Below are positions 13,774 to 41,404 of a DNA stretch of 43,039 bases, piece after piece (position 1 is the first letter of the stretch; the number at the start of each line of letters is the position of its first letter). Location: positions 1 to 43,039 of the IMG/VR virus record IMGVR_UViG_3300020214_000038, one strand, 5' to 3'. The DNA is from a virus. A model generated the notes under the pieces. That model made no database searches. It worked only from the letters and a program-made list of their open reading frames with translations, and was not told the origin of the DNA. Position numbers and translations under genes: made by a program.

Positions 13774-13777
13774 ATAT

Positions 13778-17881: not shown

Positions 17882-17892
17882 TGCTAGTAATT

Positions 17893-18262: not shown

Positions 18263-18263
18263 G

Positions 18264-24200: not shown

Positions 24201-25352
24201 AACAGTTTCAGTATCCCTAGGTTTTTCCGAATCAAGAATTGTTGTTCCTGGAAAATCTATATCAAATCCTCTAACGTAAGCTTTTCCTGGAGAAATTTTT
24301 ACACAAGACAAATTTTCGCTTGGAGTATTATTTTCTTCTGTTTTTTGATCGTCTGTATAAATTCCATCATTAGAAAGTTTATCATTCAAAGATTCTGCAA
24401 TTTCTACGCTGAAATTTCCTACTGAGTAATCTCCAGATTCTTCAAAAGTTCTTTTTGCAAAATAATCCTTAATAAGTGAATACTGTGATTTATTTTGTAA
24501 TTTTTTAATCTCCCCATTATCAAGTCTGATTAACTCTACAAAATTTTTATCATCGTAATCTGTTAATAATTTTTTTGAAAGAAAAACAGAAATTTTTAAT
24601 CTATCTGCTCCTGGAGCTGCAAAATTAGAAAATCCACGAGCATTATCATATAAACTAGAATCATCCCCAGAAGAAATTAATTCTTCTAAAATAGTTAAAC
24701 CAACTCTGTATGAAGGTGAATTTGAATATGGGTCTAATATTATAGTATCTTTTTGAACTTGTACAAAAGTACCTCTAATAAAATAAACACCTTCTGAAAT
24801 ATTAACACTTGAAGCCGTTGCGGTTGAATTAACACTAATACTTGATGCAAAACTGTCTCCAGCCTGAATGGTTGTATTACCATAAGTGATAGATTCGTCT
24901 AATATTAAAGTTTCATCGTTTTCAAATGTTGCAGGGTTAAAATCAGAATTTGAATTAATATATTTTACATAAATTGTTGGAAACTCAACCCCAAGTTTAG
25001 GTGGCAGTGATACGTTTTGAACAACTGCAGTAACAGATGAACTTGCCCCTCTAATTTTTTTACCAATAATTTTGTTTATATAAATTGAAATATCAATTCC
25101 AAAATGCTGAGGGTTTAATTTAACTGAACTAAGAAATCTATCAAAAGTTATTCCTCCAGGAATAACCATGGAACCTTCTTTGAAAATATGACTACCAAAA
25201 GATTCAATTTGATTTTGTAATATTGACTGCAGTGTTGTTAGTTCTCTAGCCTGTACTGGAGTTCCTGGTTTAAATAAAACGCGATAAAAATTATTATTTT
25301 TATCAAAATCATCAAAATATGGATTAATATCTAAATTAGTTTTTTGTGGCAT
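18264..25352 (-). CDS. Very large DUF4815-like virion / baseplate protein (2362 aa)
   Basis: The N-terminus (LDINPYFDDFDKNNNFYRVLFKPG, then PVQARELTTLQSILQNQIESFGSHIFKEGSMVIPGG) matches the DUF4815 family of large marine phage structural proteins. The first half is that domain plus Ser/Thr-rich beta segments. Around residues 1537-1548 there is a PPPPPPQRR linker followed by GKDPLAQSFTVDETGAFLTAVDLFF, a recurrent adhesin-like beta domain. A GxGY-like repeat region lies near 1780-1875. A VNNEIIFYNSIGSGVIGIATRG module near 1980-2010 also occurs in the gp7-like giant. The gene follows gp8 after two bases and occupies the T4 gene 9/10 position. It is probably a peripheral baseplate or tail-fibre-anchoring protein. 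Equating it with gp9 or gp10 is not supported by sequence. Confidence 0.85.
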   Translation of the reverse strand: MPQKTNLDINPYFDDFDKNNNFYRVLFKPGTPVQARELTTLQSILQNQIESFGSHIFKEGSMVIPGGITFDRFLSSVKLNPQHFGIDISIYINKIIGKKIRGASSSVTAVVQNVSLPPKLGVEFPTIYVKYINSNSDFNPATFENDETLILDESITYGNTTIQAGDSFASSISVNSTATASSVNISEGVYFIRGTFVQVQKDTIILDPYSNSPSYRVGLTILEELISSGDDSSLYDNARGFSNFAAPGADRLKISVFLSKKLLTDYDDKNFVELIRLDNGEIKKLQNKSQYSLIKDYFAKRTFEESGDYSVGNFSVEIAESLNDKLSNDGIYTDDQKTEENNTPSENLSCVKISPGKAYVRGFDIDFPGTTILDSEKPRDTETVVSAAIPFEMGNLLKVNNASGCPFIGINNTNNVVKLQSLRKSSNTSPSGETIGEARVYSFALANSDYTTVASAFDLYLFDIQTYTKVVVNELLFAAFCPETSLIRGISSGATGYVTQVPGPSGTTGVYLSQVSGNFIVGEQILINESSEYKRSIVAVEPHGVENVKSVYQAYSTVSGITTDFCADTILERKKPIGFNLTDKITVNAIGIATCAGKTFSGISSNTIIRYQRPGFTTETYNRVTSVSSDLQYLNLTGVSSVFGVCDGGVPGSGTVDTTFTIGAPKVENEDNAFLYAKLSSQNVSSVDLASSNVTIVKQVNAQSTSPSGNLSLNTNTLGFTSAFFEPYDSDRYSIVYSDGTFEELSSDQITLTSNNTQINFFGLRNSNSNVTVNTTIKRQSVRSKRKDYVRSAQVVVSSTQVGVSTVITGLSTSSYYGLRVEDREISLNVPDAVKVLAVYESLSKDTPVLDTLQFVSGLGLDINTVVGEKIIGKVSGSVGQVVTRISSTDIGFVYLNSNQFILGENVEFVESNIITSIQAITSGTYLNISDRYTLDKGQREQYYDYSRIVRRKGSVAPSRKLLIIFDFYKVPSNDTGDFYTVNSYDNERYTKDIPILEKNVRSSDVLDFRPRVADFTSTDKSPFAFSSRTFGTSAVNTSLVVAPNESSIVGYKFYLSRIDKIILDKLGNFSIIKGSSAVEPKEPLNVEEAMTIATLTYPPYLYSVKDVKINLIDNRRYTMRDIGVLEDRIENLEVLTSLSLLELDTKTLQIQDADGFSRFKSGFFVDDFSDNGRIDLKNFDSKSDVDKKDKTLNTPIDFFSLPVQPAAAQDVNMNSLDFTSNFLLLDQKVQKTGDLITLKYKEKEWIEQPLASRVENVNPFLMVEYIGRIVLSPASDNWVRNVYVPGGTRTIFGGWNGSYIENILISSEPEKYMRSRNVQFSSGGLQPLARYYPFMDGISGIDVVPKLLEIEMDSGTFDIGEAVDGYVGSKRLITFRIAQPNHKAGPYSTPTATYNANPYNTSLALSSKYSASSTLLNVDTASLSDEANGAFNGYVEKNMTLVGHRSKATCRITNVRLVADTFGDLIGTFFLRDPLTNPPPTVRITTGDRTFKLTSSSTNAVPLPGSLLISSGETTYHASGIVDTYRQDTVIVRIPPPPPPQRRGGKDPLAQSFTVDETGAFLTAVDLFFANKDEVEKCYVEIRTVELGTPTNQLVQDFSRAVLFPSDIKTSRDASVATKVTFPSPIYLQPQREYAVVVIAPTTTNYELWIARMGEKTVNAQKLPDAESVMVTKQYIGGSLFKSQNGTIWTANQFEDMKFKLYKAEFTEKKGTAFFYNPRLRLGDTSIPKLIPDSIKIFPRKLDVGITTVSLPQIKTELRPGRRVKANNSLANGYIERVGGGVSFTGIGTISQGFGYANGTYSNVPLYSISGRGKNLIAQSVTIASGKLSQIVINTTGLSTGNGFSVGDVIGITTANVGAKGTGAKVSISNIADFDTLYLTNVQGEEIVPGGVLQIYSNDTTLVSYANTLITSSTAFGGVYAGNVIEVNQFNHGMTSNNNKVIISNIKPDTIPTTLTVELDLNATTVSLADTTGFSKFEGITTSFGYMQVNNEIIFYNSIGSGVIGIATRGVDGSFIRKHPINSVVNKYEIGQVSLTRINKTHDMSSDTTLRNLNDIDKYHLEIDRTPRGSGESQLNFLNESQLGGNDVTVTQNLQYNSIIPQFNVITPGQRSKVSGSIRTVTGTSAGGSEVSFLDNGFEPVELNQINRLSTTRLVCSDVNETARLTTLPRNRSLTVGINLESDDKNLSPVIDTQTAFVTLSRNRINNPISDYAEDSRSNNLSGDPHCAIYVSQRVNLVKPASSLKVFVSAYRDSSADFRVLYRLFKTSSTGIEQAYNLFPGFDNLIDTNNDGFGDDIVNISKNNGKPDKFVRSSAENEFLEYQFSVDELEQFTGYSIKIVMSGTNEAKAPKFKDIRAIALA

Positions 25353-25354
25353 TT

Positions 25355-26932
25355 TTAAAATTCCAGGATAATTTTAACGTCTTCTTTTTGTCTAGAATTT
25401 CTTGATACAAGGGGTCGATTATCTATGTAGATAACATCTCCTGACCCTTTATTTATCTCTGATTCAGCAATCCCAGAATTGAACTGAACTCCAAGATTTA
25501 TATTTTTATTCCCAGTTGGATTTGTCGTAATACCACTATAATTATTATTAACAGATCCACTAAAACCATCAACTGTAGTTATGGACCCACCAGTAGGAGA
25601 AAAATCATATTTTTTTCCTAAACTACTAACCCCAACATAATCTTGTTGATCATATTGAGATGGATGATAAAATAAAGATCGATCCGAAAAATATTTAATA
25701 ACTTTTGTTTCTTCATCATATGAGGCCACATATCCAACGGCTGTCACATTAACACCATTAACTACAACACTTTGAGATATTTTTTTCCCAACTGTTAGAT
25801 AGTTTTCTCCGCTGATTGTGCCATCATTTTTTAACATAATTGCATTTGTAGAAGAAAATTGATTTTCATCATATATGGTTGTTGAATTGGATCTTAATGG
25901 ATTTTTAATTACTAAAATTTGTGCAAAAGATGTATCAGTTGGAAAATCTTTATTAGAATCATCAAATCTAGAATATAACAATACCTTGTCAGTTCCAAGT
26001 TCTTTGTATATATCGTATCCATGTCCTCTTGAGGGTGGTATTATTGGAATTAATTTTGCTGGTGAAGAAATATTACCAGCTGGTTGTAATGGTCCCAGAT
26101 CAACCATTCCAAATGTATAATTTTTTCCTCCAGAAGAAACTAGAGCAGATGTTATCTTTCCAGCACTATCTACAGAAATAACAACCTTACCTCCACTACC
26201 ATCTCCAACTATATCAACTTCTCCAGAAGCATAATTTTGACCAGGATCTTCTATATAAACTTTTTTAATTTGATTTTCATTTACTGTAGAATCACCATTT
26301 TCTCGAATTGCTTGTATTTGAGAATCTGTGGATGTACTCCAACCAGAGGGAACCGAAATATATTCTGTAGAATCAAATTTAACGATATCACTGGGTGCAA
26401 CTGTAAATAAATATTTCCAGATATAACCATCTCCACTAGCGCCAGCCACAGATGGTTCTAAATCTGTAAAAAGAGGCTCATCTTGCGAAGTATTTCCTGT
26501 ACTATTAATTCCAGAGGATGCATTATCTATACAAATATAAACTCTAAAATCAGAGTTCATTGCATAATAGTTTGCATCATATAAACGACTAGATGAGGTT
26601 ATAGGTGATAAATTGGTGATGCTGTAATCATGCCTATACATCTCATATCTAGTTCCTCTAATCCAATCAATTCTTCTAATCAATCTTCTTGCATTTGCAG
26701 GAGTTACCTTTTTGCCAAATAAAGAAGTATCCACAATGTGAGATAGATAATTTATATTATCACTTGGTGTAGGAACATTACTGTTCCAATCAGAAACTCT
26801 ACCAAAACCAACTGGAGCTGCAGGATTTGGTAAACCCACAACAATGTAGTATGAGTTATTTGCATTATCTACAGACTCAATAAAATTATTTGCATTTAAT
26901 ATTCTAAACTGATCAGTTACAATTGCCGACAT
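25355..26932 (-). CDS. 8: Baseplate wedge protein gp8
   Basis: This 525-aa baseplate wedge subunit (T4: 334 aa) carries the family pattern from end to end. It has IVTDQFRILNANNFIESV, then a WN...PTPSDN segment, RRLIRRIDWIRGTRYEMYRHDY (about residues 78-105), the diagnostic GDGYIWKYLFTVAPSDIVKF (about 165-190), and a C-terminal IYIDNRPLVSRNSRQKEDVKIILEF. The extra 190 residues lie centrally. They include a GxxY beta-repeat pair (about 231-285: KKVYIEDPGQNYASGEVDIV and ITSALVSSGGKNYTFGMVDL) of the same type as in gp14 and the gp7-like protein. A late promoter motif lies 18 bases upstream. Confidence 0.93.
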   Translation of the reverse strand: MSAIVTDQFRILNANNFIESVDNANNSYYIVVGLPNPAAPVGFGRVSDWNSNVPTPSDNINYLSHIVDTSLFGKKVTPANARRLIRRIDWIRGTRYEMYRHDYSITNLSPITSSSRLYDANYYAMNSDFRVYICIDNASSGINSTGNTSQDEPLFTDLEPSVAGASGDGYIWKYLFTVAPSDIVKFDSTEYISVPSGWSTSTDSQIQAIRENGDSTVNENQIKKVYIEDPGQNYASGEVDIVGDGSGGKVVISVDSAGKITSALVSSGGKNYTFGMVDLGPLQPAGNISSPAKLIPIIPPSRGHGYDIYKELGTDKVLLYSRFDDSNKDFPTDTSFAQILVIKNPLRSNSTTIYDENQFSSTNAIMLKNDGTISGENYLTVGKKISQSVVVNGVNVTAVGYVASYDEETKVIKYFSDRSLFYHPSQYDQQDYVGVSSLGKKYDFSPTGGSITTVDGFSGSVNNNYSGITTNPTGNKNINLGVQFNSGIAESEINKGSGDVIYIDNRPLVSRNSRQKEDVKIILEF

Positions 26933-26950
26933 TTTTAACGGTTTTCTTTC

Positions 26951-26958
26951 TATTTATT
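26951..26958 (-). promoter_or_regulatory. Late promoter motif AATAAATA upstream of gp8
   Basis: The minus strand reads AATAAATA in the 29-base gap after the gp7-like gene, with 18 bases to the gp8 ATG. It gives gp8 and the DUF4815-like gene a promoter separate from the 12.5-kb gene before them. Confidence 0.7.
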
Positions 26959-26961
26959 AGT

Positions 26962-29900
26962 TTAATCTGGTAGAATTTTTCTAATAGATCCATTATCTCT
27001 AAAACCATATCCTCGTCTTTGAATAGTTGGGAAAGTTGTAAGACCAGCATTGACTGTTCTACCAGAAACACCAATGGAAATTTGTGTGTCTGCCCTTTGC
27101 AAGGATGATAGTCTTCCCCAAGAATAATATCCATTTGGATTATATATGCTTGTTCCAAATGTTTGAATCCCTGTGGTCACTGTATTAGAACTAATGTTAC
27201 ATACAATTTCATTAAATCCAGGTAGAGCATGAACTTTGTATATGTTATCGACATACTGTGTGCCAACTCCAATTTTACTACTATTGGATGTATCAATGGA
27301 AGTTACTCCACTTCCAACATTTGTTCCCGATACAAATATGTAATAATTAACCTGTAAATCGGTATCTGCATTTACAAAGAATTTAAGTGCCAAAGAAGTT
27401 CCAATTCCAGCAGTCGTGGTTATGCCAGTAATTATACCCGAAAAACCTTGAACAACTGTTATATTTTCAACTAGCTCTGAAATTATTTTTGGTTGTTCAA
27501 TAATAACTTGTGGTGGATTGGTATTTGTATATCCAAATCCTGGATTTACAACTGAAACTGAAGATACTGATCCATTAATAATTGTTGCAGTACCAGTTGC
27601 GATTGATGCTGAATTTTGTGGTCCCACAGTTGTTCCAACTCCAACATTTGACCTTCTTGGGGCAGAGAATTTAAGTGGTCTAGATGCGACGGTATATCCA
27701 AATCCAGGATTTGTTATTGTTAATGCAGAAATTGTACCAGCAATTGACACTGTAGCAGTTACTCCAGATGAAACTGGATTGATTTCATCTAGTATAATCG
27801 CATCAACTGAAGGGGTAACCAAACTAGATTCATTTTCCTCATAGTTAAAGAATTGTGCATTATCGACAAAAATTTCGTTGTCACCAAGAGCAAAATCTTT
27901 AATAATTCTTGCCGTTGGGAAAACTAAAGTTTCAATAGAATCTCTATCCTTAAAAACGATTTGACCGTTAATGAATAAATCTCTTTTCTGTTTAGCCCAA
28001 TCAACACCCCTAAAGAAGAATTCATCTATACCAGGACCATTATAAAGATTAGTTTCCAATTTATCTGAGGAAGAAATATCATAAACTATTCTATCCTCAT
28101 CTTGATTGACTGATGTTGATATCCCATTATTCCTACCAACTGATAGCGTATCTCCAATCTTTATTGTTTCTAAAATATCTTCTTGCTCACTATCTACACC
28201 TCTTGTTCCATTATAGAAGAAAATTGAAATATTATCCTCTATTTTTGGAGCTTCTACAAATTGAATAGAGGAACCTCCATTGAATATGTATGATTTCTTA
28301 GGTTCTTGTAGCACTCCATTTAAGAATACTAGAAGAACTAAATCTAACTCTATTAAACTAGAATCTACATCTTTTTGGTCTTTTTCAAAACTTACAAGTT
28401 CAGAATTATATCTGAGTGGAAATACTGAACGAGTTCCATTCTGAAGATTTTTAATAGAATCAATAAAATCTAATTCACCAAATTGCCAGGATGAGAATTT
28501 ATCATAATAAACATCAACAACAGTTAATTCAAATTCTGATACTGGAGAAACTAGTCCTTTGGCAGTCACTAATCCAACTGGTTTAAATACGTCTCCAATT
28601 TCAAATGCATATCCAGGTCTATTGATTTTAAAATTACTAATTTCAAATAGAGATCCTGGTGCGATGGTCCTAGGTCCTGGGATTGTGCCTAAACCAACAG
28701 CATTAGTTACAATACCAACAAATGTTGTAATTGCAGAGGTAACGTCTGCACAATCACCAGCAGCATAAACTCCAGGTAATCCAGAAATATCTCCAGTAAT
28801 GGTGTAGTCGAATACTTGTGTTCTACTCGAATATCCACCTATTGCTATAACTTCATTTTTCATAGCTTGTATTGCCATGTCTCTCGCTTCATTAAAAGCA
28901 TAAATTGATTGAGTCTCTTCTCCAGACAGATATGGATTATCGATATAAATTTTTGCAGCATCATATACTGAATCATTTCCACCAAACTTTAGATTATAGG
29001 ATATAGTCTTAAGTATATCTACAATATCATCGATACATTCTTGATTACCACCAGGAACTGAGAACGCTGGGAATGCCGCTAACATTCTACCAACAGCAAC
29101 CTCAGCAATTAAATCTTTATTTGCAAGAATTAAAGATGCAGCATCCGCTGATTTATTTGATACAAATGGATCGGCATTTGGACTAACCTCAACCGAAATC
29201 AATGCATTTACACCACTAGTGGTTGTTGATCCAATCCCCAATCTTGATACTCCAGTAATCTGTAGATTTTCATAACTTGGTTCAGAAACTAATACATCTG
29301 GATTTGCAGTATATCCACTACCTCCACTAATAATTGTAAATGACAGACTCCCTCCTGCACCAACATTAGCTGTAATTGAAGCTGCAGTGCCTACATGTCC
29401 TACTTGATATACACTAACTCCAATAGCAGTTAGTCCATTATAACCTGATCCAGTTATATCGGTGCTTCCTAATCCGACTGATACAATTGATCCACCAGCA
29501 CCTACAACAGCAGTTACAGACGCTCCAACTAATGGTGCGTATCCAACGCCAGTAGTCGATCCAAGAGAAACAATTAGACCCCCTCTTGGAAACTGATTTT
29601 GATTTACATCTTGAATTGAAATAACTTTAGTTCCATCTGTAGATGTAATACCAGTAAATGTAATACTGCTAATACCAGCACTCTCTTTATAGAAGAAATT
29701 ATTTCCAGAATTATTTAAAGTAGTTGGTGTTTGGAATAGACCATTAATTAAGACTATTCCACTACCAGTCTCAATACCTGAAGTATTAACTCCAGATATT
29801 GATAATGTAAATGTTTGCCCAACTCCAGTAAAGTTTTGTGAAATATCATCATAAATTAAATTATTTTCATAATTTTGTCTTAAGAAAATTCTACCATTGA

Positions 29901-32900
29901 ATTTTGAAAAGGGTCTTGGCAAACCACCCTCATTTTGAACTACTAATCCACTCCCTTTTGGTGGTTCAGTAAAGTGAATTTTACTACCAACAATATTATA
30001 AGAACCTTTGTAAATTCTAGCTGTGGAGGGTTCAATATGAGAAGTTGCTATAGTCCCAACAAATCCTCGTTTAACGCCGACTAGTTTAATTGTTCCAGTT
30101 GTGATTGGACCAACATTTGTTGTTCCTAAACCAACACCAGAAACTTTCATGTACTCATCATCAATTTCAATAATATCACCAACTGTGATTGATGAAATAC
30201 CACTCAATGCAAAAATGGTTGATGCAGTGCCAATTGATCCACCATTACCAGATACAGTATATACAATTGGAGACCAAGCTAATGGCGATTGAATTACATC
30301 ATCAATTGCAATAATAGATTTTTCATTCTTTTTCACCATCTCAAATGTATGACTATTACCACTACCTAAGGACGTAAATGTTACACTAATGCCAGCATTA
30401 ACATATTCTGGTCTGGTTGATATTGTAAATTGATCATTATTTATTTTTTTAGCCCATACCCTATATGGTAGTTTATTAGTTACTATTCCAATAGAGTCGG
30501 CAGTAGATCCAATTCCAACAGGTGCCGAAGAAAGTCCAGCAACCGTTGATCCAGCTGTATAAATTAACTCTTCTCCAGTACTAAAAAAGTGATTTTTGAT
30601 ATTGAATACGCCTGTTACTGGATTTAAAACAGACCCATCTTGTGGATTAAAAGATTTACTGAAGATAGGAGTTTTATCATATTTTAAATCAAAAACGGTT
30701 TTATTAATTCTAACACTGTTTAAAGAATCAAATAATGAAATTCCCAATTCTTGTTTTCTTTGGGATCCATATGTAATATCTGGGTATGTATTTTGTAAAT
30801 CTAATTCAGTATAAATTAATTCATTATAAGATTTAACTGTAACAATTCCAGTCACAGAGGAATCTGGATAAAATTCAATTAGGAAATCGCCAGAATTAAT
30901 ACGAGATCCAAATGTTCCGATTCCAGTGGTGCTTCCAACTGATAAGAATGGGAATTGGCTAGTATAAGTCTCAGTTGAGTTTAAATTAATACTTAATAAT
31001 TGATGTAATGCATATGTTGATCCATAACTTACATTGATAGTAGATTTGATAGATGCTATTTCTGATGCATTGCATTTAATGACGGTTGTTTTGCCAACTC
31101 CAACTGCATATGAGGATTCAAATCTGGCACTTCTTTCACTTCCGTCTGGTTGGAAAGTATTTCCAAATCTAATTGTACCAATGCCAAGATTTGTTGATCC
31201 AAATCCAATTGAACTACTTTGAACTCTTAAACTATTATTTAAAGTATTAGTATATTTTAATGCCAATGTCCCATCTATTAATGATGCATCAAAATTTTCT
31301 AATCCGTTAAAAGATACAGAATCTGAAGAGTTTGAATCAAAATAATAGTCTGCCAAATAAGTGTTCGTTCCATCATGACTGAGATATATTTCTACAAAGT
31401 TTTGAGTATTTTTATTTGTATCTGTTACATGTAGGATCGAATGAACAGCATCAATTTGATTTGCTGGAAACTCAAAAATAGTTGCGGTCGAAGCGATTCC
31501 AACGATTGTACTAAATCCTACAAGTGTATTTGAAGAAAAACTTTTTATTAAACCTATTGATGTTGATGCTAATCCAACTACATTATTATTAAAAGTTTCC
31601 TTGATAAACTTAATATCATAATCACTATCAAATGGATCATTTGGAGTAAATCTTAGCGATAAAATATCAAATACATCAATATTTCCAGTAAGTTGGCAAA
31701 AATCTTGTTCCTTCCAAAAAGTAGTTGAAGAGAGAGTTTCTGATCCTGGAGAGTATGTGATTCCAATTCCAGTATTTGATAGGTATGATTTTCTAAGCGT
31801 AAAAACATCCTCTTGGTTTGAATCATATAATGTAATCAATTCATAGACTGCTAACTCATTCCCCTTAGTATTTCTAATCTGCACTAAGAATCTGCAGAAT
31901 GAATCCTCAAATTCATCAATATCTATAAAAGTATCACTTAAGTTATCTTTATTAGTAAATTGACCACTTACATCATCTATTGATAGAACTCTATTAGTTT
32001 TGCAAATTAATCCATCAACAAACTTTTTATTAAATGACTTTAAGAACTTAGATGTGCCTGCTTGAGTCTCAATATCTTTCATCAAGATAAATCCGTAGAT
32101 ACCATCTGCTCTTTTTTCTTCAATTATATCACGAAGTGCAAGAGATTCAACGGAAGATGCACCGACTGAGACATTAGAATTAGATATAATCTCAGTATCT
32201 GCAAAATTTTTAAGACCCGTGGTATGAAGAAGGCGATTAACCGAGTCAATGGAATCTTTATATTGAATTGTGCTCTTCACAGAGTACGCTAAATTTTGAT
32301 AATAATCATTATCGGGTAACACTTGAATATCATTATTAAGTTGGCCAACGTTAGATTTCCATCCAAAATTGGAAGTTACCCCAAATCCTACATTAAATTT
32401 AGCTCTACTCTTAATTATATCAGAGATAGTGCCTACAGAACCAGACTGAGTGCCTCTTATCACATCCGATAGACTTAATTTATTTCTACCAGAAACTTTA
32501 ATATAATCTTGAAAAACTGCAGAAATAATTAAATTAGATGGTTGATTATTTAAATCTATTTTCTCTCCCGCAGTGAAATTTGATTTTGTTTGAGTTATTT
32601 TAAATTGTGGATAATTGGAATATTTTACAATTGTTGCGTATGAACCTTGTATTGTATCTGCAATCCCAGGATTTGTTGTGTATTCTGATAAATTGAATCT
32701 AAGGATGGCGGGAATTAAATTTTCATAAGATTGAACAGTGAAGAATCTATATCCATAATCTTCAGAATTAAATCCACTTCCAATAGTTCCACTTTTTGAA
32801 ATCCCTTCAACAAAAATTATATCACCTGCATTAAATGCATTTGTTGTAAACCCAAGTAATGGTGTTGTCAAGAAACAGGTAACCACTCCAGAACTGGAAG

Positions 32901-35900
32901 ATTGCATTGTTGATATACCGACACCATTTGAATTGTTAGTAGCAAATAAAGTTTTTCCATTAAAACTAAGTCCCACAGGGGGTTGAATTATTTCAACCTT
33001 GGATATTGAATTTGTCTGAATTTTTGCTTCTAAAATACCAGTATTATACTTTTCACGACTTACATCATCAACAATAATAATATTTGGTTTATCGTTGTAG
33101 TTTTTCCCCCCACTTATAACTTCAATTTCACTAATTGTAAATGTATCTTTTAGTTTAATTGTTGGAGGAATATTTGCTTCTGGTCTAAGAGTTACATCTG
33201 ATGAATATTCAAATGCTTGATCTACAACTCTTATCTCATTAACTTTTCCAATGTTAGATGATTCTAAGAATAAATTAGCATTTTTTCCATTAGACGTTAT
33301 GATACTTGTAATGCCAGGTAAAGATTTATAATTTTTACCCTCAGAAAGTAAAAGAATTTTATTTATTTTTCCAGAGGATGTTTCAGAAGTAGTAGAATAT
33401 TCTAATGTAGAAGTGTTACTTTGATTATATAAAGAATTTTCTGGTATTTGAGAGAGTGATATTACAAAATTAGTGGTTCCAATACCTATGATATTATAAT
33501 CTCGATTATAAAAGCTATCAAAATATGAAATTTCACAATAATTTTTTACATCTGTATCTACTGTTGATATAGATCCAGATTTTTCTAAATTATAGAATAG
33601 TCTATCGGGTAGAAGATCGGAATAATTTAAAGTATATTTTGCTGTACTCGCTATTCCAACCGTACCCACTCCAGAAGTTGAAAAAGTAGTTGTATTTGCT
33701 ATAGATACGAATTTGTTAATAAATTTATTATCAGTGTATAAATTAAAACTATACCCAGACAATGAAGGATTGCCAACATCAAATACAAGATTATTTCCCC
33801 TAGTTGGTTGTAATTTTGGATTAATGAGGGAAATATTTTGTAACTCGCCACCAGTCGAAGCTATGGAAACTAATACTGGTGGGAAGGATGATGCATCTTT
33901 ATCTGATAAACATAGACTAATTGTATTTTTATCAATTTTAAATACATAATAAATTCCTGTAGTTAATCCAGATGAAACTAAATCTGATGAATTATAATAA
34001 ACTTTATCTCCAGTAGAATAAATGTGAGATGGAATTGTGATTGTATCAGAGTTTATATTTACTTGTGAAGATGTAAATCCAACGGGATTTACTAATATTT
34101 TTTCAATACTAGGTTCATATTTTAGCGTAATAAATGCTGAAGTGCCAATACCAACAGATTGATTTGGGATGATATTTAATCGAACAAGATCATTATTTGT
34201 TAAATCATGTGCAGTAGATATTGATACGACAGCAGTATTTCTTTGAATTGTACATTTAATTTGATCCTTAGTTGGTTCTAATGAATATTCATAATTATCG
34301 GTTCCAAAGTTAAGGAAAAATAATCCATTGGTATTTGTTGTAAGTCCAACTTGAGTTGCAATACCAACATAGTCTTTTGACTTATTGATGGCATAAACAT
34401 ATTCAAATGATGAATTTAATAAATTAAATGCCGCTGAAGTTTCAGTATTTGATACTGAAATTGGATCTCCATTTTGTTTTCTAATAATTAATCTTTGACT
34501 TGTTTTAAAAGGATGATTTGGCAAATATATGCTTTGAGTTGGAATATTAACACTGTAATTTAACTCACCCAATGAATAAGTAACTGCTACTCCAACACCA
34601 GAAGTTGTTCCTATTCCAATAGATTGTTTTGGATTAAAATAATATCTTTCATTTAGATAAGAATCAAAATATTCTGTCTGTAAAGCAATGTCGATGAAAT
34701 TTGGATACGCAAATGCAAATACATTTAATGTATGCCCTGCACCACTAATTCCCCGTTTAACTCTAAGAATTTTTTTATCTGAAAATACATTTAGCACTGA
34801 TAAAATTTCAGTTCCAATACCAATGGTTGATCCTACCGAGATAATATTGGGTATAGAAGAAACGTATATGTCAGTAACAATTCCAGGGGTAGAGTTTGGT
34901 GGTATTTCTTTAAATATATTAAGTCTTTCCGTAGATATCGATACTGTTCTATCACCTACAATTTTTGGAACAAATGTAGATAACCCAGATATAGAAACAA
35001 TCTCAAAATTATTTAATTCATGAAATGGATTGATATAAACTCTTATTGTATTTTTATCGTGCCAAGTTAAAACAGATTGGGAGTACTCTAATGTTGATGA
35101 CGCAACTGATACTATATCTTTTCCACCAATAGATTGTACAATAGCAGAAGCTCCTCCACCATTAGTATTTTCATTATTAAATGTGATAATATCATTAATC
35201 TTGAAATTATCACCACCATTTAAAATTTGAATGCCTTCAATACTTCCTTTACTAGCGGAAGATACAATTGATTCTTGATTGAATTGTGATTCATATTCAA
35301 TTAAGAAATCATTTCGAGAATATGGATCTGAAACTTTGTATGGTAAAGTATTTCTAACTAAACTTAATTTTGAAAAATCAGAATCTTGATCTAAATTACC
35401 ACTAACATATAAAGATTTAAAATTATTACCAATAAAATATGGAAATTGGGGATCATAAAGACCATCTGTTGTTATGCCTGCAAAATATGCATAAATTCCT
35501 TTTGGAAAATCTGGAGTTTTACAGAATCTACCATTGTGAACATCTAATTTTCCAATATCTGTAAATTTATAGTCATTTACAAAAAATCCAGGAACAAATC
35601 CAGATGGTCTATCAATTATATTAGATGTGTCTATTTCATATCCAGTTTTTAGTATTTCGATACCAGAAGATGAATCTAGGGGATTTTTATATCCATAAGG
35701 TCCATATATTGGATTTCCATCATAAGCCCATCCAACAATTGGTGAGTGAATAGATCCGTTATCGTTAAAATCATTAACAGCTATTTCATATGAATATGCA
35801 ATATTAGTATATTGTAACCCAAGATTAGACGGATTTAAATATTCTGCTCCAAATCTCTCTCCATCATTTATATCCAAGGATCTAACTGTTGCATCCAACT

Positions 35901-38900
35901 TTAAATTTTTACCTGCAGGTATTACACTAACAGAGGTATTATTTTGGGAATACCCAATTCCAGAATTGATTACTATAACATTAGTAATTTGTCCATTGCT
36001 TATAACTGGTCTTAATGAAGCACCAGTTCCTTGACCTTTGACAACGATGGATGGTGTAGAAAAATATTCAGTACCTCTTGATCTTACATCAACTCTAACT
36101 ATTCTTCCATTAAAAATTATTGGATAAAGAGAAGCATTTTTTCCAGTCTTTATCGTTATATTTGGTTTTCTTTCAAAATTTAAAACATTAGTTCCATATC
36201 CTGTTCCCTTATCATAAAGATATGCATCTATTACTTTACCTCGAATGATAGGAGTACATGTAATTATACCAGTATTAGTTGAACCATAAGAAACATTTAA
36301 AGTGATAGAAATATCAGAATACTTAAAAATATGATATCCACTACCAGTATTAGTTAATTTTTGGAATAGATTTCTGGTGTAATTTGACGATATTGTTCCG
36401 CCTATTCCAGCATCAGATAATTTAAATGAATTATCATCTATTTTTGTTATATAATATTGATTGCTAGTTGTCAGTCCAGAAAGTGGAGTTCCAGTATATT
36501 GATACTCAACCAAATCACCATCATTAAATTTGTGATTTTCAAAAGTAATTAAATTTTCTACTGTAGAAATTCCAGTTGAATTAACGTAAAGTTTTCTATT
36601 TTGATACCCAGATCCAGGATTTAAAACTTTTATAGATTTTAGAGTTTTTTTACCATCATACACTCGAAACTTGTGGATTCCAGCGTTTGAAGTAGTTGTA
36701 AATCCAATTGTATTAATTCCAACAAAAAAGTCATTAAAAGTTTCAAATAGTCGAACTGTTTTACTATTTAAAACCTTGACAAAATATCTTGCATCTTCGA
36801 GTAAAAATCTATTTTGATCTGCGTTTGAACCTAAGAAAGTTCCTATTCCAAGAGGAGGATTACCATTTGTTTTATAAACTACTGCTTCACCATTACTAAA
36901 TCCATGATTTGATAAAAATGTTATTGTTTCTGCAGTTTCTCCAATTCCTCCAAAATTACTAAGTAATCTTGCATCAAAATCAACCTCTTTAAATACTTTT
37001 TCAACAACTGGTTCCAAAATACATCCAGAACCATTTCCACCTTGGATACTTAAAGATATTACTTTATCTAACTCAATAGTTTGTGGATCTACAAAAACTT
37101 CTTTAACAGAACCACTTACAACTGGTTGTACAAATGCAGTAGTCCCAGATCCTGGTCCAGCAATTGATATAATTGGAGGATTTATAACATCGTAATCTGT
37201 TCCAGAATTCAATAATTTTATTGAAGATAGTGGTCCATAATAAATTTTATCTTTTGATTTATAGTTTTTTATTTCAACACCATTAACTAACATTCCAATA
37301 AATTCTTCATTATTAGAAGTTTTATTATTATCTTGAATATTTTCTTTTAATGGAAATTTACTAAGCAGTTTTTTAGAAATAATTTTTTTGTTGTAACTTG
37401 ATGCTAATGTAAAAATTTGTTTTCCACCATCTGGTATAAATTTCTTATAATCATCGGGAGCAATAAAAGAGTTGGACGAATATAATTTTATTTGTTTTGG
37501 ATCAGATAGGACCTTTACATAATATGTTGTACCACTTGATAGTCCGATAATTTCTCTTTCTACTGCTTCATAAACTACAGCATCACCTGTTAGAAATGGA
37601 ACCGCAGTTGGGAATGATATGATTGAAAACTCATCATCATAAGACTCTTTTTGTACTGCTCCACTTTGAGTTGTTGCTGCACCAATAAAAGTTGTAGCTG
37701 TCCCAACAAGTATTGATGATAATCGTGGCACAGAGTTGGTTCTAAATGAAAATGATGGTAAGGAATTAGAGGCCACATACATGACATTATCCAAATCATC
37801 AGAATATACATTTTGCACATCTGCGGAAAATAAATTATTTCCATATAATAATGGTGTATTTTCGCTAGAAGTTTTTTTAATGACTCTTCTAAGTGAGTGG
37901 GGTAATAGTGTTGAGGTAGTTCCTACCCCAACTGCATTCAATGTTACTTGTTTAGTATTCGGGTTAATATTAGAAACTCTAACGTTAGAAGCCCTAACCT
38001 CTTTAGTTATTTCATTAATTATATCTACATTATCACCAATTTTTAAACTAGAAGAATCTATATTTGATTTTAGTACAAAATTTTGAAATATATAATCAAA
38101 TGATTCTACTTCAAAAGTAGAACTAGTATTATAAATCCAAGAATTTGCAAAAATTTGCTTATATGTTTTATCATTAATATTTGTTGGATTTTCAATTAAA
38201 TCCCCCAAATTTTTAATGTAAATTTTTTCGCCTTCAAAATTCAAACCCTTATTGTCTATAATATCTAAATTTGATAAAATAGAACAAACTTTTAATTCTA
38301 CTTTTTTAGTTAAATCCCCATCTTCATATCCAAATATAGTATCATCAGATCTTATAATTTGTTTTGTTCGTATCACTTCCGTGATACCACTACAATTCAA
38401 AAATTGATTTATAGTTTTATCAGAATAAGTAATTGATTTATTGCCAGAATAAAAAGTTCCTTTTGCACTAAACCCAATTGTAGAATCAACAGTAACAACT
38501 GAAGAACCAATTGAAACATCTCCAATTGCTTTAGTATTTGCAGTTGTTGTAAATCTACCTTCAATAACAGACTCTTCATCATATCCGATGAATAAACCAA
38601 TTTTATAATAAATTTTATTATTCCTAGTTAAAATTTCAACTTCAGATACTGCTGCTTTAGTTTGAGTATCAATCGACCTATAAACTGTTTGTCCAACTAA
38701 CTTATTCGGATCTCCAGAAATTTTTTCTACAATGAGAATTTTTCTTCTTAAATAATCTGAATCAGAAGGTTTTAATAGAAATTTTTCTAAATCAATAACT
38801 TTTGGTACAACACCGAATAATACTTTGTAAAGGATTTTAAATGACTCTTCTGTTCCCTTTGTTTGATAAAAACTTCTAATCTCCTTTAAAAAATTACCAA

Positions 38901-39471
38901 CATTTAATTGTGATACAAACTCTACATTTTCTAATCCAGGGGCAATTGAATACTTTATCTTATTACAAAATTCTTTTAAAAATAGTGAACTAAGATTTTG
39001 TACTGAAGAATATTGAGCATGTGAAGATGATTTTGTCTCTTTAAAAACAAGTTCTTCTGGATTGTTCGCATCTCTATAACTTGATATTCCAGAAAATCCT
39101 CTTACACATCCAGTGAATGATGTAGATCCAATACCAGTATATGTAATTATTTCATCGTCTATCTTCAATAATCCATATTGTTTTGGAAATCCCTTTGTAC
39201 TTAGAACATTAATGGTAGTAGAAGTCGAAGAGATTCCTGAAGATGTTAGTGAAGTAAATCCAACAACGACTTCTGGTGTTAGATTATCGAGTTTAATATA
39301 TTCAATAAAATTTTCCGAAATATCAGATGGTCCGCTTTGATATTCTTGAGAAATATAATATTGTTTTAAAAAATCAACTATCTTTGGACTTTCATCTAAT
39401 ATGAACGAGGGTAACTGATTTTCTATAATTTGATATACTTTTACTTTTGATTCGATACCAGTTTGAATCAT
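26962..39471 (-). CDS. 7: Giant gp7-like baseplate wedge protein (4169 aa) with YHYH and helical inserts
   Basis: This one ORF is 12.5 kb long; T4 gp7 is 1032 aa. The N-terminal region carries a gp7 signature near residues 189-262: LKEIRSFYQTKGTEESFKIL followed by YKVLFG and later LVGQTVYRS, matching a block from the C-terminal half of T4 gp7. Downstream are GxGY beta repeats (e.g. 747-790, 1080-1193, 2034-2157, 3912-3997), H-x-F-x-x-G-D modules (about 619, 845, 970, 1808, 2953), a YHYH domain (about 1240-1330), and an all-helical island (about 3430-3597). V-G-I-G-T/S pentapeptides are scattered throughout. An AGAGGA ribosome site precedes the ATG, two bases after gp6. It is likely a wedge protein with long external extensions. 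Function beyond the gp7 part is inference. Confidence 0.85.
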   Translation of the reverse strand: MIQTGIESKVKVYQIIENQLPSFILDESPKIVDFLKQYYISQEYQSGPSDISENFIEYIKLDNLTPEVVVGFTSLTSSGISSTSTTINVLSTKGFPKQYGLLKIDDEIITYTGIGSTSFTGCVRGFSGISSYRDANNPEELVFKETKSSSHAQYSSVQNLSSLFLKEFCNKIKYSIAPGLENVEFVSQLNVGNFLKEIRSFYQTKGTEESFKILYKVLFGVVPKVIDLEKFLLKPSDSDYLRRKILIVEKISGDPNKLVGQTVYRSIDTQTKAAVSEVEILTRNNKIYYKIGLFIGYDEESVIEGRFTTTANTKAIGDVSIGSSVVTVDSTIGFSAKGTFYSGNKSITYSDKTINQFLNCSGITEVIRTKQIIRSDDTIFGYEDGDLTKKVELKVCSILSNLDIIDNKGLNFEGEKIYIKNLGDLIENPTNINDKTYKQIFANSWIYNTSSTFEVESFDYIFQNFVLKSNIDSSSLKIGDNVDIINEITKEVRASNVRVSNINPNTKQVTLNAVGVGTTSTLLPHSLRRVIKKTSSENTPLLYGNNLFSADVQNVYSDDLDNVMYVASNSLPSFSFRTNSVPRLSSILVGTATTFIGAATTQSGAVQKESYDDEFSIISFPTAVPFLTGDAVVYEAVEREIIGLSSGTTYYVKVLSDPKQIKLYSSNSFIAPDDYKKFIPDGGKQIFTLASSYNKKIISKKLLSKFPLKENIQDNNKTSNNEEFIGMLVNGVEIKNYKSKDKIYYGPLSSIKLLNSGTDYDVINPPIISIAGPGSGTTAFVQPVVSGSVKEVFVDPQTIELDKVISLSIQGGNGSGCILEPVVEKVFKEVDFDARLLSNFGGIGETAETITFLSNHGFSNGEAVVYKTNGNPPLGIGTFLGSNADQNRFLLEDARYFVKVLNSKTVRLFETFNDFFVGINTIGFTTTSNAGIHKFRVYDGKKTLKSIKVLNPGSGYQNRKLYVNSTGISTVENLITFENHKFNDGDLVEYQYTGTPLSGLTTSNQYYITKIDDNSFKLSDAGIGGTISSNYTRNLFQKLTNTGSGYHIFKYSDISITLNVSYGSTNTGIITCTPIIRGKVIDAYLYDKGTGYGTNVLNFERKPNITIKTGKNASLYPIIFNGRIVRVDVRSRGTEYFSTPSIVVKGQGTGASLRPVISNGQITNVIVINSGIGYSQNNTSVSVIPAGKNLKLDATVRSLDINDGERFGAEYLNPSNLGLQYTNIAYSYEIAVNDFNDNGSIHSPIVGWAYDGNPIYGPYGYKNPLDSSSGIEILKTGYEIDTSNIIDRPSGFVPGFFVNDYKFTDIGKLDVHNGRFCKTPDFPKGIYAYFAGITTDGLYDPQFPYFIGNNFKSLYVSGNLDQDSDFSKLSLVRNTLPYKVSDPYSRNDFLIEYESQFNQESIVSSASKGSIEGIQILNGGDNFKINDIITFNNENTNGGGASAIVQSIGGKDIVSVASSTLEYSQSVLTWHDKNTIRVYINPFHELNNFEIVSISGLSTFVPKIVGDRTVSISTERLNIFKEIPPNSTPGIVTDIYVSSIPNIISVGSTIGIGTEILSVLNVFSDKKILRVKRGISGAGHTLNVFAFAYPNFIDIALQTEYFDSYLNERYYFNPKQSIGIGTTSGVGVAVTYSLGELNYSVNIPTQSIYLPNHPFKTSQRLIIRKQNGDPISVSNTETSAAFNLLNSSFEYVYAINKSKDYVGIATQVGLTTNTNGLFFLNFGTDNYEYSLEPTKDQIKCTIQRNTAVVSISTAHDLTNNDLVRLNIIPNQSVGIGTSAFITLKYEPSIEKILVNPVGFTSSQVNINSDTITIPSHIYSTGDKVYYNSSDLVSSGLTTGIYYVFKIDKNTISLCLSDKDASSFPPVLVSIASTGGELQNISLINPKLQPTRGNNLVFDVGNPSLSGYSFNLYTDNKFINKFVSIANTTTFSTSGVGTVGIASTAKYTLNYSDLLPDRLFYNLEKSGSISTVDTDVKNYCEISYFDSFYNRDYNIIGIGTTNFVISLSQIPENSLYNQSNTSTLEYSTTSETSSGKINKILLLSEGKNYKSLPGITSIITSNGKNANLFLESSNIGKVNEIRVVDQAFEYSSDVTLRPEANIPPTIKLKDTFTISEIEVISGGKNYNDKPNIIIVDDVSREKYNTGILEAKIQTNSISKVEIIQPPVGLSFNGKTLFATNNSNGVGISTMQSSSSGVVTCFLTTPLLGFTTNAFNAGDIIFVEGISKSGTIGSGFNSEDYGYRFFTVQSYENLIPAILRFNLSEYTTNPGIADTIQGSYATIVKYSNYPQFKITQTKSNFTAGEKIDLNNQPSNLIISAVFQDYIKVSGRNKLSLSDVIRGTQSGSVGTISDIIKSRAKFNVGFGVTSNFGWKSNVGQLNNDIQVLPDNDYYQNLAYSVKSTIQYKDSIDSVNRLLHTTGLKNFADTEIISNSNVSVGASSVESLALRDIIEEKRADGIYGFILMKDIETQAGTSKFLKSFNKKFVDGLICKTNRVLSIDDVSGQFTNKDNLSDTFIDIDEFEDSFCRFLVQIRNTKGNELAVYELITLYDSNQEDVFTLRKSYLSNTGIGITYSPGSETLSSTTFWKEQDFCQLTGNIDVFDILSLRFTPNDPFDSDYDIKFIKETFNNNVVGLASTSIGLIKSFSSNTLVGFSTIVGIASTATIFEFPANQIDAVHSILHVTDTNKNTQNFVEIYLSHDGTNTYLADYYFDSNSSDSVSFNGLENFDASLIDGTLALKYTNTLNNSLRVQSSSIGFGSTNLGIGTIRFGNTFQPDGSERSARFESSYAVGVGKTTVIKCNASEIASIKSTINVSYGSTYALHQLLSINLNSTETYTSQFPFLSVGSTTGIGTFGSRINSGDFLIEFYPDSSVTGIVTVKSYNELIYTELDLQNTYPDITYGSQRKQELGISLFDSLNSVRINKTVFDLKYDKTPIFSKSFNPQDGSVLNPVTGVFNIKNHFFSTGEELIYTAGSTVAGLSSAPVGIGSTADSIGIVTNKLPYRVWAKKINNDQFTISTRPEYVNAGISVTFTSLGSGNSHTFEMVKKNEKSIIAIDDVIQSPLAWSPIVYTVSGNGGSIGTASTIFALSGISSITVGDIIEIDDEYMKVSGVGLGTTNVGPITTGTIKLVGVKRGFVGTIATSHIEPSTARIYKGSYNIVGSKIHFTEPPKGSGLVVQNEGGLPRPFSKFNGRIFLRQNYENNLIYDDISQNFTGVGQTFTLSISGVNTSGIETGSGIVLINGLFQTPTTLNNSGNNFFYKESAGISSITFTGITSTDGTKVISIQDVNQNQFPRGGLIVSLGSTTGVGYAPLVGASVTAVVGAGGSIVSVGLGSTDITGSGYNGLTAIGVSVYQVGHVGTAASITANVGAGGSLSFTIISGGSGYTANPDVLVSEPSYENLQITGVSRLGIGSTTTSGVNALISVEVSPNADPFVSNKSADAASLILANKDLIAEVAVGRMLAAFPAFSVPGGNQECIDDIVDILKTISYNLKFGGNDSVYDAAKIYIDNPYLSGEETQSIYAFNEARDMAIQAMKNEVIAIGGYSSRTQVFDYTITGDISGLPGVYAAGDCADVTSAITTFVGIVTNAVGLGTIPGPRTIAPGSLFEISNFKINRPGYAFEIGDVFKPVGLVTAKGLVSPVSEFELTVVDVYYDKFSSWQFGELDFIDSIKNLQNGTRSVFPLRYNSELVSFEKDQKDVDSSLIELDLVLLVFLNGVLQEPKKSYIFNGGSSIQFVEAPKIEDNISIFFYNGTRGVDSEQEDILETIKIGDTLSVGRNNGISTSVNQDEDRIVYDISSSDKLETNLYNGPGIDEFFFRGVDWAKQKRDLFINGQIVFKDRDSIETLVFPTARIIKDFALGDNEIFVDNAQFFNYEENESSLVTPSVDAIILDEINPVSSGVTATVSIAGTISALTITNPGFGYTVASRPLKFSAPRRSNVGVGTTVGPQNSASIATGTATIINGSVSSVSVVNPGFGYTNTNPPQVIIEQPKIISELVENITVVQGFSGIITGITTTAGIGTSLALKFFVNADTDLQVNYYIFVSGTNVGSGVTSIDTSNSSKIGVGTQYVDNIYKVHALPGFNEIVCNISSNTVTTGIQTFGTSIYNPNGYYSWGRLSSLQRADTQISIGVSGRTVNAGLTTFPTIQRRGYGFRDNGSIRKILPD
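28680..29190 (-). other. Predicted helical domain inside the gp7-like giant
   Basis: Residues about 3430-3597 break the beta-rich pattern with helix-type sequence: DAASLILANKDLIAEVAVGR, then CIDDIVDILKTISYNLKFGGND, VYDAAKIYIDN and FNEARDMAIQAMKNEVIAIG. The Cys at ECIDD and another at AGDCAD could pair. The function is unknown. It is flanked on both sides by Gly/Ser/Thr-rich repeats. Confidence 0.6.
35490..35760 (-). other. YHYH-type domain inside the gp7-like giant
   Basis: Residues about 1240-1330 contain HSPIVGWAYDGNPIYGPYGY, then VPGFFVNDYKF, LDVHNGRFCKTPDFPKGIYAYF. This closely follows the YHYH family pattern (SPIxGxAxDGxPIYGPYGY ... LDxxNGxxxxTPxxPxGxYxY). The eponymous final YHYH is here YAYF. 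The role of this domain in virions is not established. Confidence 0.75.
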
Positions 39472-39472: not shown

Positions 39473-41404
39473 TTATCCTCTCTTTAACTCTCCATTTGAA
39501 TAACTTGAGGTTACTTTATATCCAACTCCAGAAATTTGTTCGCCAGAAGAAATTGTATCTTTTACCATATTTATGATGCTATTTGAAATATCAAACTCAA
39601 GATATAAATCTTTTAATCCAATAACATCATTTGATTCTGGGAATGCTTGTATTTCAACAACATCATTTTCTTTTTCTGTTTCTGTAATTACAACTGTAGA
39701 TAATATAATTTCACCCTCTATATAATCAACAGTTCCAGCTGATTTAATAATAACTCTATTAACAGAACTAGGACCACCATTCGCAGCATCAATATCAATA
39801 ACTGGTTTTACGATAGATATAATTCCTGTTTTTTTATCTGGATTTGGAATATCAGTCAAATAAACCGTATCTACCTCATTTTGTATTTTAAATCCTGTAC
39901 TTTTAATATTAAATCCAGCTGGATTCACATGAAATTCATTTCCGAAGCAAAGTTCATATTGTGCAGGTTTATTAGTTAAAGCTTTTAGATTTCTTCTAAT
40001 TCTAACTTTTGTAATATTTGACGTAATCGCCCTATCAACATTGTCAATTACATTCAAAACTTTACTGTATTTAAATCTACCACCAAACCTGTTAATTTCA
40101 ATCGAGTCTGAATAAGAACGTAATAAATTGACTATGTTAGTTTTTAGTTGATTAACGTTGCTTACCTGAGATGAGTTATAATAAACATTTGAATCAATTT
40201 CAACAAAAAGAACTTTAAGATCTACAATTTTTTGATTGATTCCAGTTAAAGAATAATTTTTTAATTTACTAAGAATTAAATTTTTATCAAAATCAGAAAT
40301 AAGATCTCCATTTTTTGGTTTTATACTAATTTGAACTGTCCCAAATTGTGGTGGTTTAAGTTCTTCTCCTCCAACTACAGATACTGACTCAGTATTTGGG
40401 TAAATTGACTGAATGATCGCCTCATAATCTCTGGATGTTACTGCTCTATATTGTGCAGAATATAATCTAGGAGCAAAATATTTAATAGATTCTACAGGTT
40501 CAATAGAAGTTCCATTAGCAGATTTAGATATTACATTTAGAGTAACTGAAGATACTGTTGCAAAACCATTTAAAGAATCAATAAATGTTCCTGCAAATGC
40601 AAAATTAGATGCACCATTCCCTTCTTCTCCATCAGTTACAATGTATGTAACAGTTACAATTGTTCCATTTTCAAGTTTTTTTCCGAAAAAGTTATCTCCG
40701 AAGAGAAGTTCATACTTCTCATCTTGAATTTCTTGGAGTAAATAAATTTCAGAGTTTTTATCAATCTTTAAAATATTATCAACTCTTTGATATTCTGAAC
40801 CTTCCCCAGTGTCTGCGGCACCCTTTACCTTTACAATAATAGTTTGAGTATCGATGAATGAATTATCTAATATAAATCTTTGATCTAGACTACCATCAAC
40901 TACAAAAGTTTTTTTTAGTAAAGCACCTTGATAGATTTCTATTGGATTTTCTGCGGTTCCAAAAGTTGCCGAATAATTTTTAACTGTTGTAGTTATATTT
41001 TCTGGTATTGAAAAGATATATGAGTTTTCATTTGATGCTGTTCCAACGCATACAGGACCTCTTGCTTCTAGAGTTAGACTGGGGCTACTAAATGCACTAC
41101 TAAGACCAACCTGAAGGGTTACAGACGCTCTGGAGCATGTTCTGGAGCGAGGAACGTATCCTATGTTTCTAGCAAGAGATATAACATTTTCTCGAAGAGT
41201 TGCTGAATCTAAAAATGCTTCATTCGCTACCATATTTGCATTAAATGCATTAATATAGGTGTTGTACGCCAGAGTATTTAAAATGATAGAAAAATTAGAT
41301 CCCTCAAAATCAAAGTCCGTAAAATTACTATTAGAACGGAGATAATCCTTGATGGAGGTTTTAATCTGATCGAAATCTAGATTTGTAAATTTAGTGAAAG
41401 GCAT
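39473..41404 (-). CDS. 6: Baseplate wedge protein gp6
   Basis: This 643-aa baseplate wedge protein (T4: 660 aa) forms the inner ring of the baseplate with gp7 and gp53. The N-terminal block (about 45-95) reads LNTLAYNTYINAFNANMVANEAFLDSATLRENVISLARNIGYVPRS, the conserved start of the Baseplate_J-like family. The central block AVTSRDYEAIIQSIYPNTESVSVVGGEE...PPQFGTVQISIKPK (about 315-360) is the second diagnostic segment. It starts one base after the gp25 stop, with a GAGG sequence in the last gp25 codons as probable ribosome site. The 25-6-7-8 order is exactly that of T4. Confidence 0.96.
   Translation of the reverse strand: MPFTKFTNLDFDQIKTSIKDYLRSNSNFTDFDFEGSNFSIILNTLAYNTYINAFNANMVANEAFLDSATLRENVISLARNIGYVPRSRTCSRASVTLQVGLSSAFSSPSLTLEARGPVCVGTASNENSYIFSIPENITTTVKNYSATFGTAENPIEIYQGALLKKTFVVDGSLDQRFILDNSFIDTQTIIVKVKGAADTGEGSEYQRVDNILKIDKNSEIYLLQEIQDEKYELLFGDNFFGKKLENGTIVTVTYIVTDGEEGNGASNFAFAGTFIDSLNGFATVSSVTLNVISKSANGTSIEPVESIKYFAPRLYSAQYRAVTSRDYEAIIQSIYPNTESVSVVGGEELKPPQFGTVQISIKPKNGDLISDFDKNLILSKLKNYSLTGINQKIVDLKVLFVEIDSNVYYNSSQVSNVNQLKTNIVNLLRSYSDSIEINRFGGRFKYSKVLNVIDNVDRAITSNITKVRIRRNLKALTNKPAQYELCFGNEFHVNPAGFNIKSTGFKIQNEVDTVYLTDIPNPDKKTGIISIVKPVIDIDAANGGPSSVNRVIIKSAGTVDYIEGEIILSTVVITETEKENDVVEIQAFPESNDVIGLKDLYLEFDISNSIINMVKDTISSGEQISGVGYKVTSSYSNGELKRG

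Follow-up and report, generated by a model that had tools for sequence, protein, structure and literature searches.

A phycobiliprotein-like cassette in the C-terminal arm of a giant gp7 baseplate wedge protein

The whole stretch of viral DNA analysed here (43,039 nucleotides, IMG/VR record IMGVR_UViG_3300020214_000038; referred to below as the window) encodes a gp7 baseplate wedge protein of 4169 aa whose C-terminal arm carries a phycobiliprotein-like cassette. Giant gp7 proteins are already known in cyanophages, where the size of this one is ordinary; the new part is the phycobiliprotein-like insert. We show that the conserved gp7 core lies in the N-terminal ~400 residues, together with two inserted copies of a small beta module, and that the remaining ~3750 residues form a collinear conserved arm in which beta repeats are joined by a YHYH domain and a single hotspot for optional cassettes. 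We think it probable that, in a T4-like cyanophage, this protein joins two gp6 chains as the third member of the (gp6)2-gp7 wedge, with its arm at the periphery and a phycobiliprotein-fold cassette that has been reused structurally.

A single giant gene between gp6 and gp8

The following genes are listed in their order of transcription.

41406–41807, minus strand: probable gp25, 133 aa (length and position as in P-SSM2 gp25)
39473–41404, minus strand: gp6 baseplate wedge (Pfam Gp6-like_1st, E 2.1e-14; PHROG 219, E 5e-190)
26962–39471, minus strand: gp7 baseplate wedge protein, 4169 aa (stop-free ORF, PHROG 2885, gene order)
25355–26932, minus strand: gp8 baseplate wedge (Pfam Phage-Gp8, E 1.3e-13; PHROG 438, E 1e-148)
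18264–25352: VriC-like giant, next after gp8

The single 12.5-kb gene of the preliminary description is indeed a stop-free ORF, now placed on the minus strand: it runs from an ATG at 39471 to 26962 with zero internal stops. It matched the PHROG 2885 profile 'baseplate wedge subunit' at 3643 bits and sits between gp6 and gp8. The order gp25-gp6-gp7-gp8 is common to the window, P-SSM2, S-SRM01, P-HM1, ACG-2014j and HTVC008M. The preliminary description had also raised the concern that an assembly artefact might have fused several genes. This is extremely improbable: we found no supporting point for it, and it is contradicted by collinear giant gp7 genes in several cultured phages and in nine IMG/VR orthologues (3860–4727 aa) from independent contigs. 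As these nine are collinear with the window gene at ~47–73% identity along the whole length, the giant ORF is one gene and not an artefact. Two shorter orthologues (2791 and 2793 aa) could be aligned to it only partly. In L229 (genome G006), the gp7 open frame of 2791 aa lies within a 236-kb contig and misses the last ~970 residues; it may be a split gene or a true short form.

The N-terminal gp7 core

The N-terminal part of the protein contains four features.

39262–39471, minus strand: N-terminal helices, residues 1–70, presumed to form the core bundle with two gp6 chains (low-confidence AlphaFold helices; role from XM1 gp17, PMC10457771)
39022–39258, minus strand: first beta module, residues 72–150, between the N-terminal helices and the core (module HMM; beta fold in the model)
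38599–39006, minus strand: gp7 core with motifs FYxxKGTEESF and LVGQT, residues 156–291, homologous to T4 gp7 ~722–812
38317–38544, minus strand: second beta module, residues 310–385, which splits the domain matching T4 gp7 765–854 (module HMM)

The block that had been likened to the C-terminal half of T4 gp7 is present at residues 201–219 (FYQTKGTEESFKILYKVLF) and 258–264 (LVGQTVY), and is followed by ~3900 residues as claimed. In BLASTP, residues 201–219 were 63% identical to T4 gp7 734–752 (pair E 4e-4), and a weak collinear segment paired residues 34–46 with T4 gp7 618–630. When an N-terminal alignment of 36 sequences was compared with a T4 gp7 alignment of 17 sequences, profile against profile, residues 200–292 matched T4 gp7 733–812 (E 1.2e-5), with LVGQTVY aligned onto LVGQTIY. 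The likeness exceeds chance, with a score of 52.6 against a best score of 30.4 among 100 column-shuffled control profiles.

The structural comparison of residues 1–400 with T4 gp7 that had been proposed also favoured homology. T4 gp7 (chain 5iv5_BJ) was the top Foldseek PDB match to an AlphaFold model of residues 1–457 (mean pLDDT 66, under 50 at residues 33–67), and the sole one under E 1e-3, though a sequence search of the PDB with the N-terminal alignment profile found zero chains. The structural match is confined to residues 241–411, which VIA-align superposed on 5iv5_BJ 765–854 (Z 9.4, rmsd 3.1, 89 residues aligned); a Klebsiella phage gp7-like chain gave Z 9.5 against the N-terminal model. 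As these Z values are modest, they back up the sequence evidence and are not independent proof. Sequence, profile and predicted structure together confirm that the N-terminal block is homologous to T4 gp7 ~733–854. The N-terminal helices are poorly modelled, so their putative role in the core bundle is drawn by analogy.

The HMM of the small beta module matched residues 77–125 (39097–39243) and 313–361 (38389–38535) of gp7, as well as one copy in VriC (1954–2011) and copies in other giants. In short orthologues, the core begins ~95 residues earlier than in the window gp7. The module resembles a baseplate domain of JBD30 (Z 10) and, at Z ~7, the beta barrel with which F1-ATPase subunits begin; kinship with F1-ATPase was set aside, as this is a common beta-barrel arrangement.

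An N-terminal core is the usual arrangement

With an iterated HMM for the gp7 core, we searched the gene at this place in each genome. These genes encode proteins that range from the short (KpS110 283 aa, ACP17 482, RHph_I1_18 528, Melnitz 896, phiN3 1006, HTVC008M 1016, DLP6 1288) to the giant (S-PM2 3048, ACG-2014j 3494, S-SRM01 3895, window 4169, RN05-S 4337, P-HM1 4446, P-SSM2 5195, S-CREM1 5422, Syn19 6483, S-SZBM1 6619, P-SSM4 7312). The core was found in every one of them and started within residues ~60–172 in most, including the short orthologues of 482–1288 aa from Rhizobium, Sinorhizobium, Stenotrophomonas, Acidovorax, Methylophilales and Pelagibacter phages (~60–166). The exceptions are T4 (~722) and the group of Syn19, P-SSM4, S-CREM1 and S-SZBM1 (L126, L127, L251 and L403; 654–665). 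In KpS110 the core starts at 163, past the midpoint of the 283 residues. In Vibrio phage XM1, the core-bundle helices of gp7 (gp17, 242 aa) occupy residues 1–48 (PMC10457771).

The preliminary description had proposed that the core moved and that the N-terminal portion was lost. An ancestral T4-like gp7 that shed its N-terminal ~600 residues and then gained the C-terminal arm would fit the ~590 residues that precede the core in T4 gp7 and its Straboviridae relatives. We regard this as very improbable, as the core is at or near the N-terminus in the short gp7 of several other phage groups and in XM1 gp17 (PMC10457771), and as the Syn19 and P-SSM4 fronts (core at 654–655) carry GxGY repeats, which T4 lacks. 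Since the N-terminal position is usual, nothing need have moved or been lost. The different contents of the fronts likewise suggest that front additions arose more than once. In this unrooted comparison, the most economical interpretation has core-first as the usual arrangement and the ~590-residue front extension of T4 as an exception, with T4 and the Syn19 group having acquired their front additions separately. The GxGY repeats of Syn19 and P-SSM4 lie within ~500 extra front residues, apparently an independent front expansion. A fusion of gp8 into gp7 in these two phages was ruled out, as gp8 is a separate gene further on.

In databases, such genes are named gp7 or 'baseplate wedge initiator', and the PHROG 2885 profile has 4179 positions. 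A study of pelagi- and cyanomyophages stated that T4 gp7 is absent from them and replaced by VrlC (PMC7029224); the N-terminal homology to gp7 contradicts this statement.

A repeat-rich arm with one length-variable hotspot

Four features were mapped in the C-terminal arm.

35926–36642, minus strand: GxGY repeat cluster, residues 944–1182 (iterated repeat HMM)
35473–35799, minus strand: YHYH domain, residues 1225–1333 (Pfam PF14240, 86.8 bits, E 2.4e-24)
28654–29481, minus strand: length-variable hotspot, residues 3331–3606, between conserved anchors (orthologue comparison)
28672–29157, minus strand: phycobiliprotein-fold cassette, 162 residues, 3439–3600 (PF00502, PDB profile search, AlphaFold, Foldseek and VIA-align, hhalign, conservation)

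The huge C-terminal extension of beta repeats that had been described is borne out as a repeat-rich arm, and the two domains said to be inserted in it correspond to the YHYH domain and the phycobiliprotein-like cassette. BLASTP self-comparison of gp7 returned no internal repeats; these were found instead by iterated HMMs, which counted 11 GxGY copies in gp7, two in gp8 and ten in a 1023-aa protein that resembles the head-closure protein Hc2. Outside the cluster, further repeats of gp7 lie at residues 746, 1409, 2112, 3373, 3912 and 3967. The ORF of the Hc2-like protein (10714–13785, minus strand) has a TTG start, and the PHROG profile for it covers only 385 positions. The gp7 orthologue of HTVC008M (L119:5983–9033) carries the annotation 'head closure Hc2'. 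As the GxGY repeats are shared, the name of PHROG 460, 'head closure Hc2', probably leaks onto gp7 genes such as this one.

The hotspot is the main site of length variation in gp7, with 98–1176 aa between the anchors at residues 3330 and 3606 in the orthologues. It is a baseline of ~107 aa in S-SRM01, G003, G004, G005, G009, L151, L157, L181 and L186, and consists of the helical cassette in the window, G001 and G012, of helical plus other material in G002, L142, L143 and L146, and of beta-repeat arrays in G007, G008, L148, L150 and P-SSM2. As its contents differ among orthologues, the cassette is an optional insert. The residues just upstream of the cassette form a baseline module that is also found in cassette-free orthologues. 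A 1490-aa gene just upstream of a probable gp25 (L145:2270–6742) contains a cassette copy that is 67% identical to that of the window, whereas the gp7 N-terminus of the same phage is only 43% identical. This difference suggests that the cassette has likely been exchanged between lineages.

The cassette has a predicted phycobiliprotein-like fold

Searches with sequences led to a single family. The cassette alone matched PF00502 (Phycobilisome) at 25.5 bits, above the cut-off of 22.2, and 10 of 18 members of the cassette family matched it at E 0.5 or better. All 50 PDB matches of the cassette family profile were phycobiliproteins (best E 2.4e-4), which a broader cassette profile again found, more weakly (E 0.0025); the whole gp7 yielded sub-significant PDB matches only, nearly all of them phycobiliproteins. 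In a profile–profile comparison with hhalign, the cassette matched cyanobacterial beta subunits at E 7.1e-5 with a score of 35.2, whereas 60 shuffles scored at most 20.1. A template-free AlphaFold model from a phage-only alignment (pLDDT 80.4, pTM 0.81) predicts the globin-like phycobiliprotein fold. The top 50 Foldseek rows for this model were all phycobiliproteins (E 1.3e-3 to 2.5e-2, probability 1.00), and all 50 VIA-align rows were phycobiliproteins or relatives at Z 15–17, with phycoerythrin beta at Z 17.0 and rmsd 2.3 over 141 residues.

In the alignments, Cys3479 pairs with beta Cys84, Asp3482 with Asp87 and Cys3574 with Cys155, so that the bilin-attachment cysteine Cys84 with Asp87, and beta Cys155, all have equivalents in the cassette. 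These are conserved at 96%, 98% and 99%, respectively, where present (115 distinct copies, up to 98 scored). The N-terminal X-Y helices, which pair alpha with beta, are missing, and the cassette model begins at about residue 35 of the phycobiliprotein chain. The bilin-pocket loop before Cys84 is not intact, with a ~7-residue deletion in the alignments (YPNRRMA region).

A helical cassette unrelated to phycobiliproteins, whose likeness stems from convergence or modelling bias, seems improbable to us. The identity to phycobiliproteins is low (16–23%), the Foldseek E-values are only those given above, and Z is inflated for helical bundles; however, the sequence-only searches reach the same family with matching cysteine motifs, and Z 15–17 spans the whole domain with all 50 rows from one family. 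Of 14 control genomes, a single one exceeded the PF00502 cut-off, and Synechococcus elongatus was among the two that had matches. We take the cassette to be distantly homologous to cyanobacterial beta-phycobiliproteins and most likely acquired from an antenna gene of the host. As the link to phycobiliproteins is made by 16–23% identity and one predicted model, we call the cassette phycobiliprotein-like and not a phycobiliprotein.

gp7 and fibre genes of cyanophages carry the domain

A tblastn search found the phycobiliprotein-like domain at 953 places in 357 of 50,697 phage records, which bear Synechococcus, Prochlorococcus or other cyanophage names, except for one marine virus. Its carriers are gp7 and giant 'short tail fiber' genes. 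PF00502 did not find the domain in T4, HTVC008M or Melnitz, and the family profile was also negative for the latter two. In S-SZBM1, the gene at the gp7 place (S-SZBM1_208, 6619 aa) contains about seven domain copies, and virions yielded 71 peptides of its product at 13.5% coverage (PMC9146016). The domain is therefore probably in the S-SZBM1 virion, with cleavage of the protein possible at a coverage of only 13.5%. Peptides are also reported for S-CREM2 ORF122 (1938 aa, 91 unique peptides; PMC10665884), and the cluster into which the gp7 gene of Syn19 falls, T4-GC969, was detected in S-SM1 virions (PMC3037559). In the open-access literature that we searched, a phycobiliprotein fold in virion proteins is unreported.

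Structural reuse or bilin attachment

The purpose of phage CpeT has so far been read as boosting host light harvesting. The conserved cysteines raise the alternative that the virion domains bind bilin: the phage T-type lyase CpeT would attach phycoerythrobilin to the Cys155 equivalent, and perhaps to the Cys84 equivalent, giving pigmented baseplates or tail fibres in which the bilin-bearing domains could serve, for example, in photoprotection, light sensing or stabilisation. Cyanophages have CpeT as their T-type lyase (PMC10452541), and lyases of this type join bilin to beta Cys155 (PMC2327270). The attachment cysteines and the Asp87 equivalent are conserved in Prochlorococcus phages too; Prochlorococcus is without standard phycobilisomes, and why its phages carry bilin genes was called unclear (PMC2984593).

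We found cpeT (PF06206) in 15 of 21 domain-bearing records and in 1 of 11 others (Fisher p 0.001), and, among the 19 named phage records, in 9/12 with the domain and 0/7 of the others (p 0.002). These 32 records are uncorrected for phylogeny and the second batch alone gave p 0.14; with records that share ancestry, some of them fragmentary, the p-values are too optimistic. Moreover, four genomes have cpeT shortly upstream of a fibre gene that carries the domain. In ACG-2014e, cpeT (18240–18764) is directly followed by the 4075-aa fibre gene (19130–31357), and in ACG-2014j it lies at 17514–18038 ahead of the fibre gene at 18328–30501; one ORF separates the two genes in S-CAM1 and three small genes do so in S-PM2, where the copy in the fibre protein spans residues 1323–1485. 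In the S-PM2 region 160500–178500 (L655), the annotation places many tRNA genes within the fibre ORF of 3779 aa, where ARAGORN finds zero; nine ARAGORN tRNAs precede this ORF, around cpeT, so that the annotated tRNA positions seem displaced or questionable.

Against bilin attachment, the pocket residues before Cys84 and the X-Y helices are absent, cpeT is missing from six domain-bearing records and may act on host phycoerythrin, and the bilin reductase (PF05996) showed no association with the domain. As both attachment-site cysteines are retained and there is a link to the lyase, we leave bilin attachment a minor share of the probability. That the domains bind bilin is accordingly unlikely in our judgement, and so is the version in which CpeT attaches bilins to virion domains instead of, or besides, host antenna proteins and the virion is pigmented. 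We lean, by a modest degree, towards a role of the phycobiliprotein fold in assembly or surface contact, for which it would provide a compact module. Nevertheless, within the collection searched the domain, with its conserved bilin cysteines, is confined to cyanophages and linked to cpeT, and would be a possible client of the phage lyase that the phage itself encodes; it also bears on why Prochlorococcus phages carry bilin genes (PMC2984593).

Proposed role and comparison with known systems

By analogy with XM1 gp17, the N-terminal helices of gp7 would bundle with two gp6 chains, and six gp7 copies would form the wedge ring. The arms may extend outward to make up the periphery of the baseplate, where they would carry host-contact elements or themselves serve as such; the short gp7 of XM1 holds tail spikes via a loop and its C-terminus (PMC10457771). 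The hotspot may be an exchange site for host-facing or structural modules, and the cassette most likely a stable module that virion proteins have adopted for structure or binding.

The closest counterparts are the gp7 of P-SSM2 (5195 aa), that of S-SRM01 (3895 aa) and PHROG 2885, which share the gene order, the N-terminal core and 43–50% identity over the full length, and the YHYH motif is common to the window and P-SSM2 proteins. Their hotspots differ: that of P-SSM2 is ~1176 aa of mostly beta repeats and that of S-SRM01 the ~107-aa baseline, whereas the window has the phycobiliprotein-fold cassette. With T4 gp7 (1032 aa), the window protein shares the core block and the following beta domain (T4 733–854). 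It differs from T4 gp7 in being without the ~590-residue front and in having two beta-module insertions and a C-terminal arm of ~3750 residues. XM1 gp17 (242 aa) offers a putative parallel in its wedge role, expected N-terminal core and expansions at the inter-helix loop and C-terminus; it is of minimal size and, unlike the window gp7, has no repeats or inserted domains. Finally, the cassette shares with the phycoerythrin and phycocyanin beta subunits (for example 7ap5_BBB and 6jpr_B) the fold from the helix at ~35 to the C-terminus and the Cys84-x-x-Asp87 and Cys155 positions. Unlike these beta-phycobiliproteins, it has no X-Y helices, carries the ~7-residue deletion before Cys84 and is embedded in giant virion proteins.
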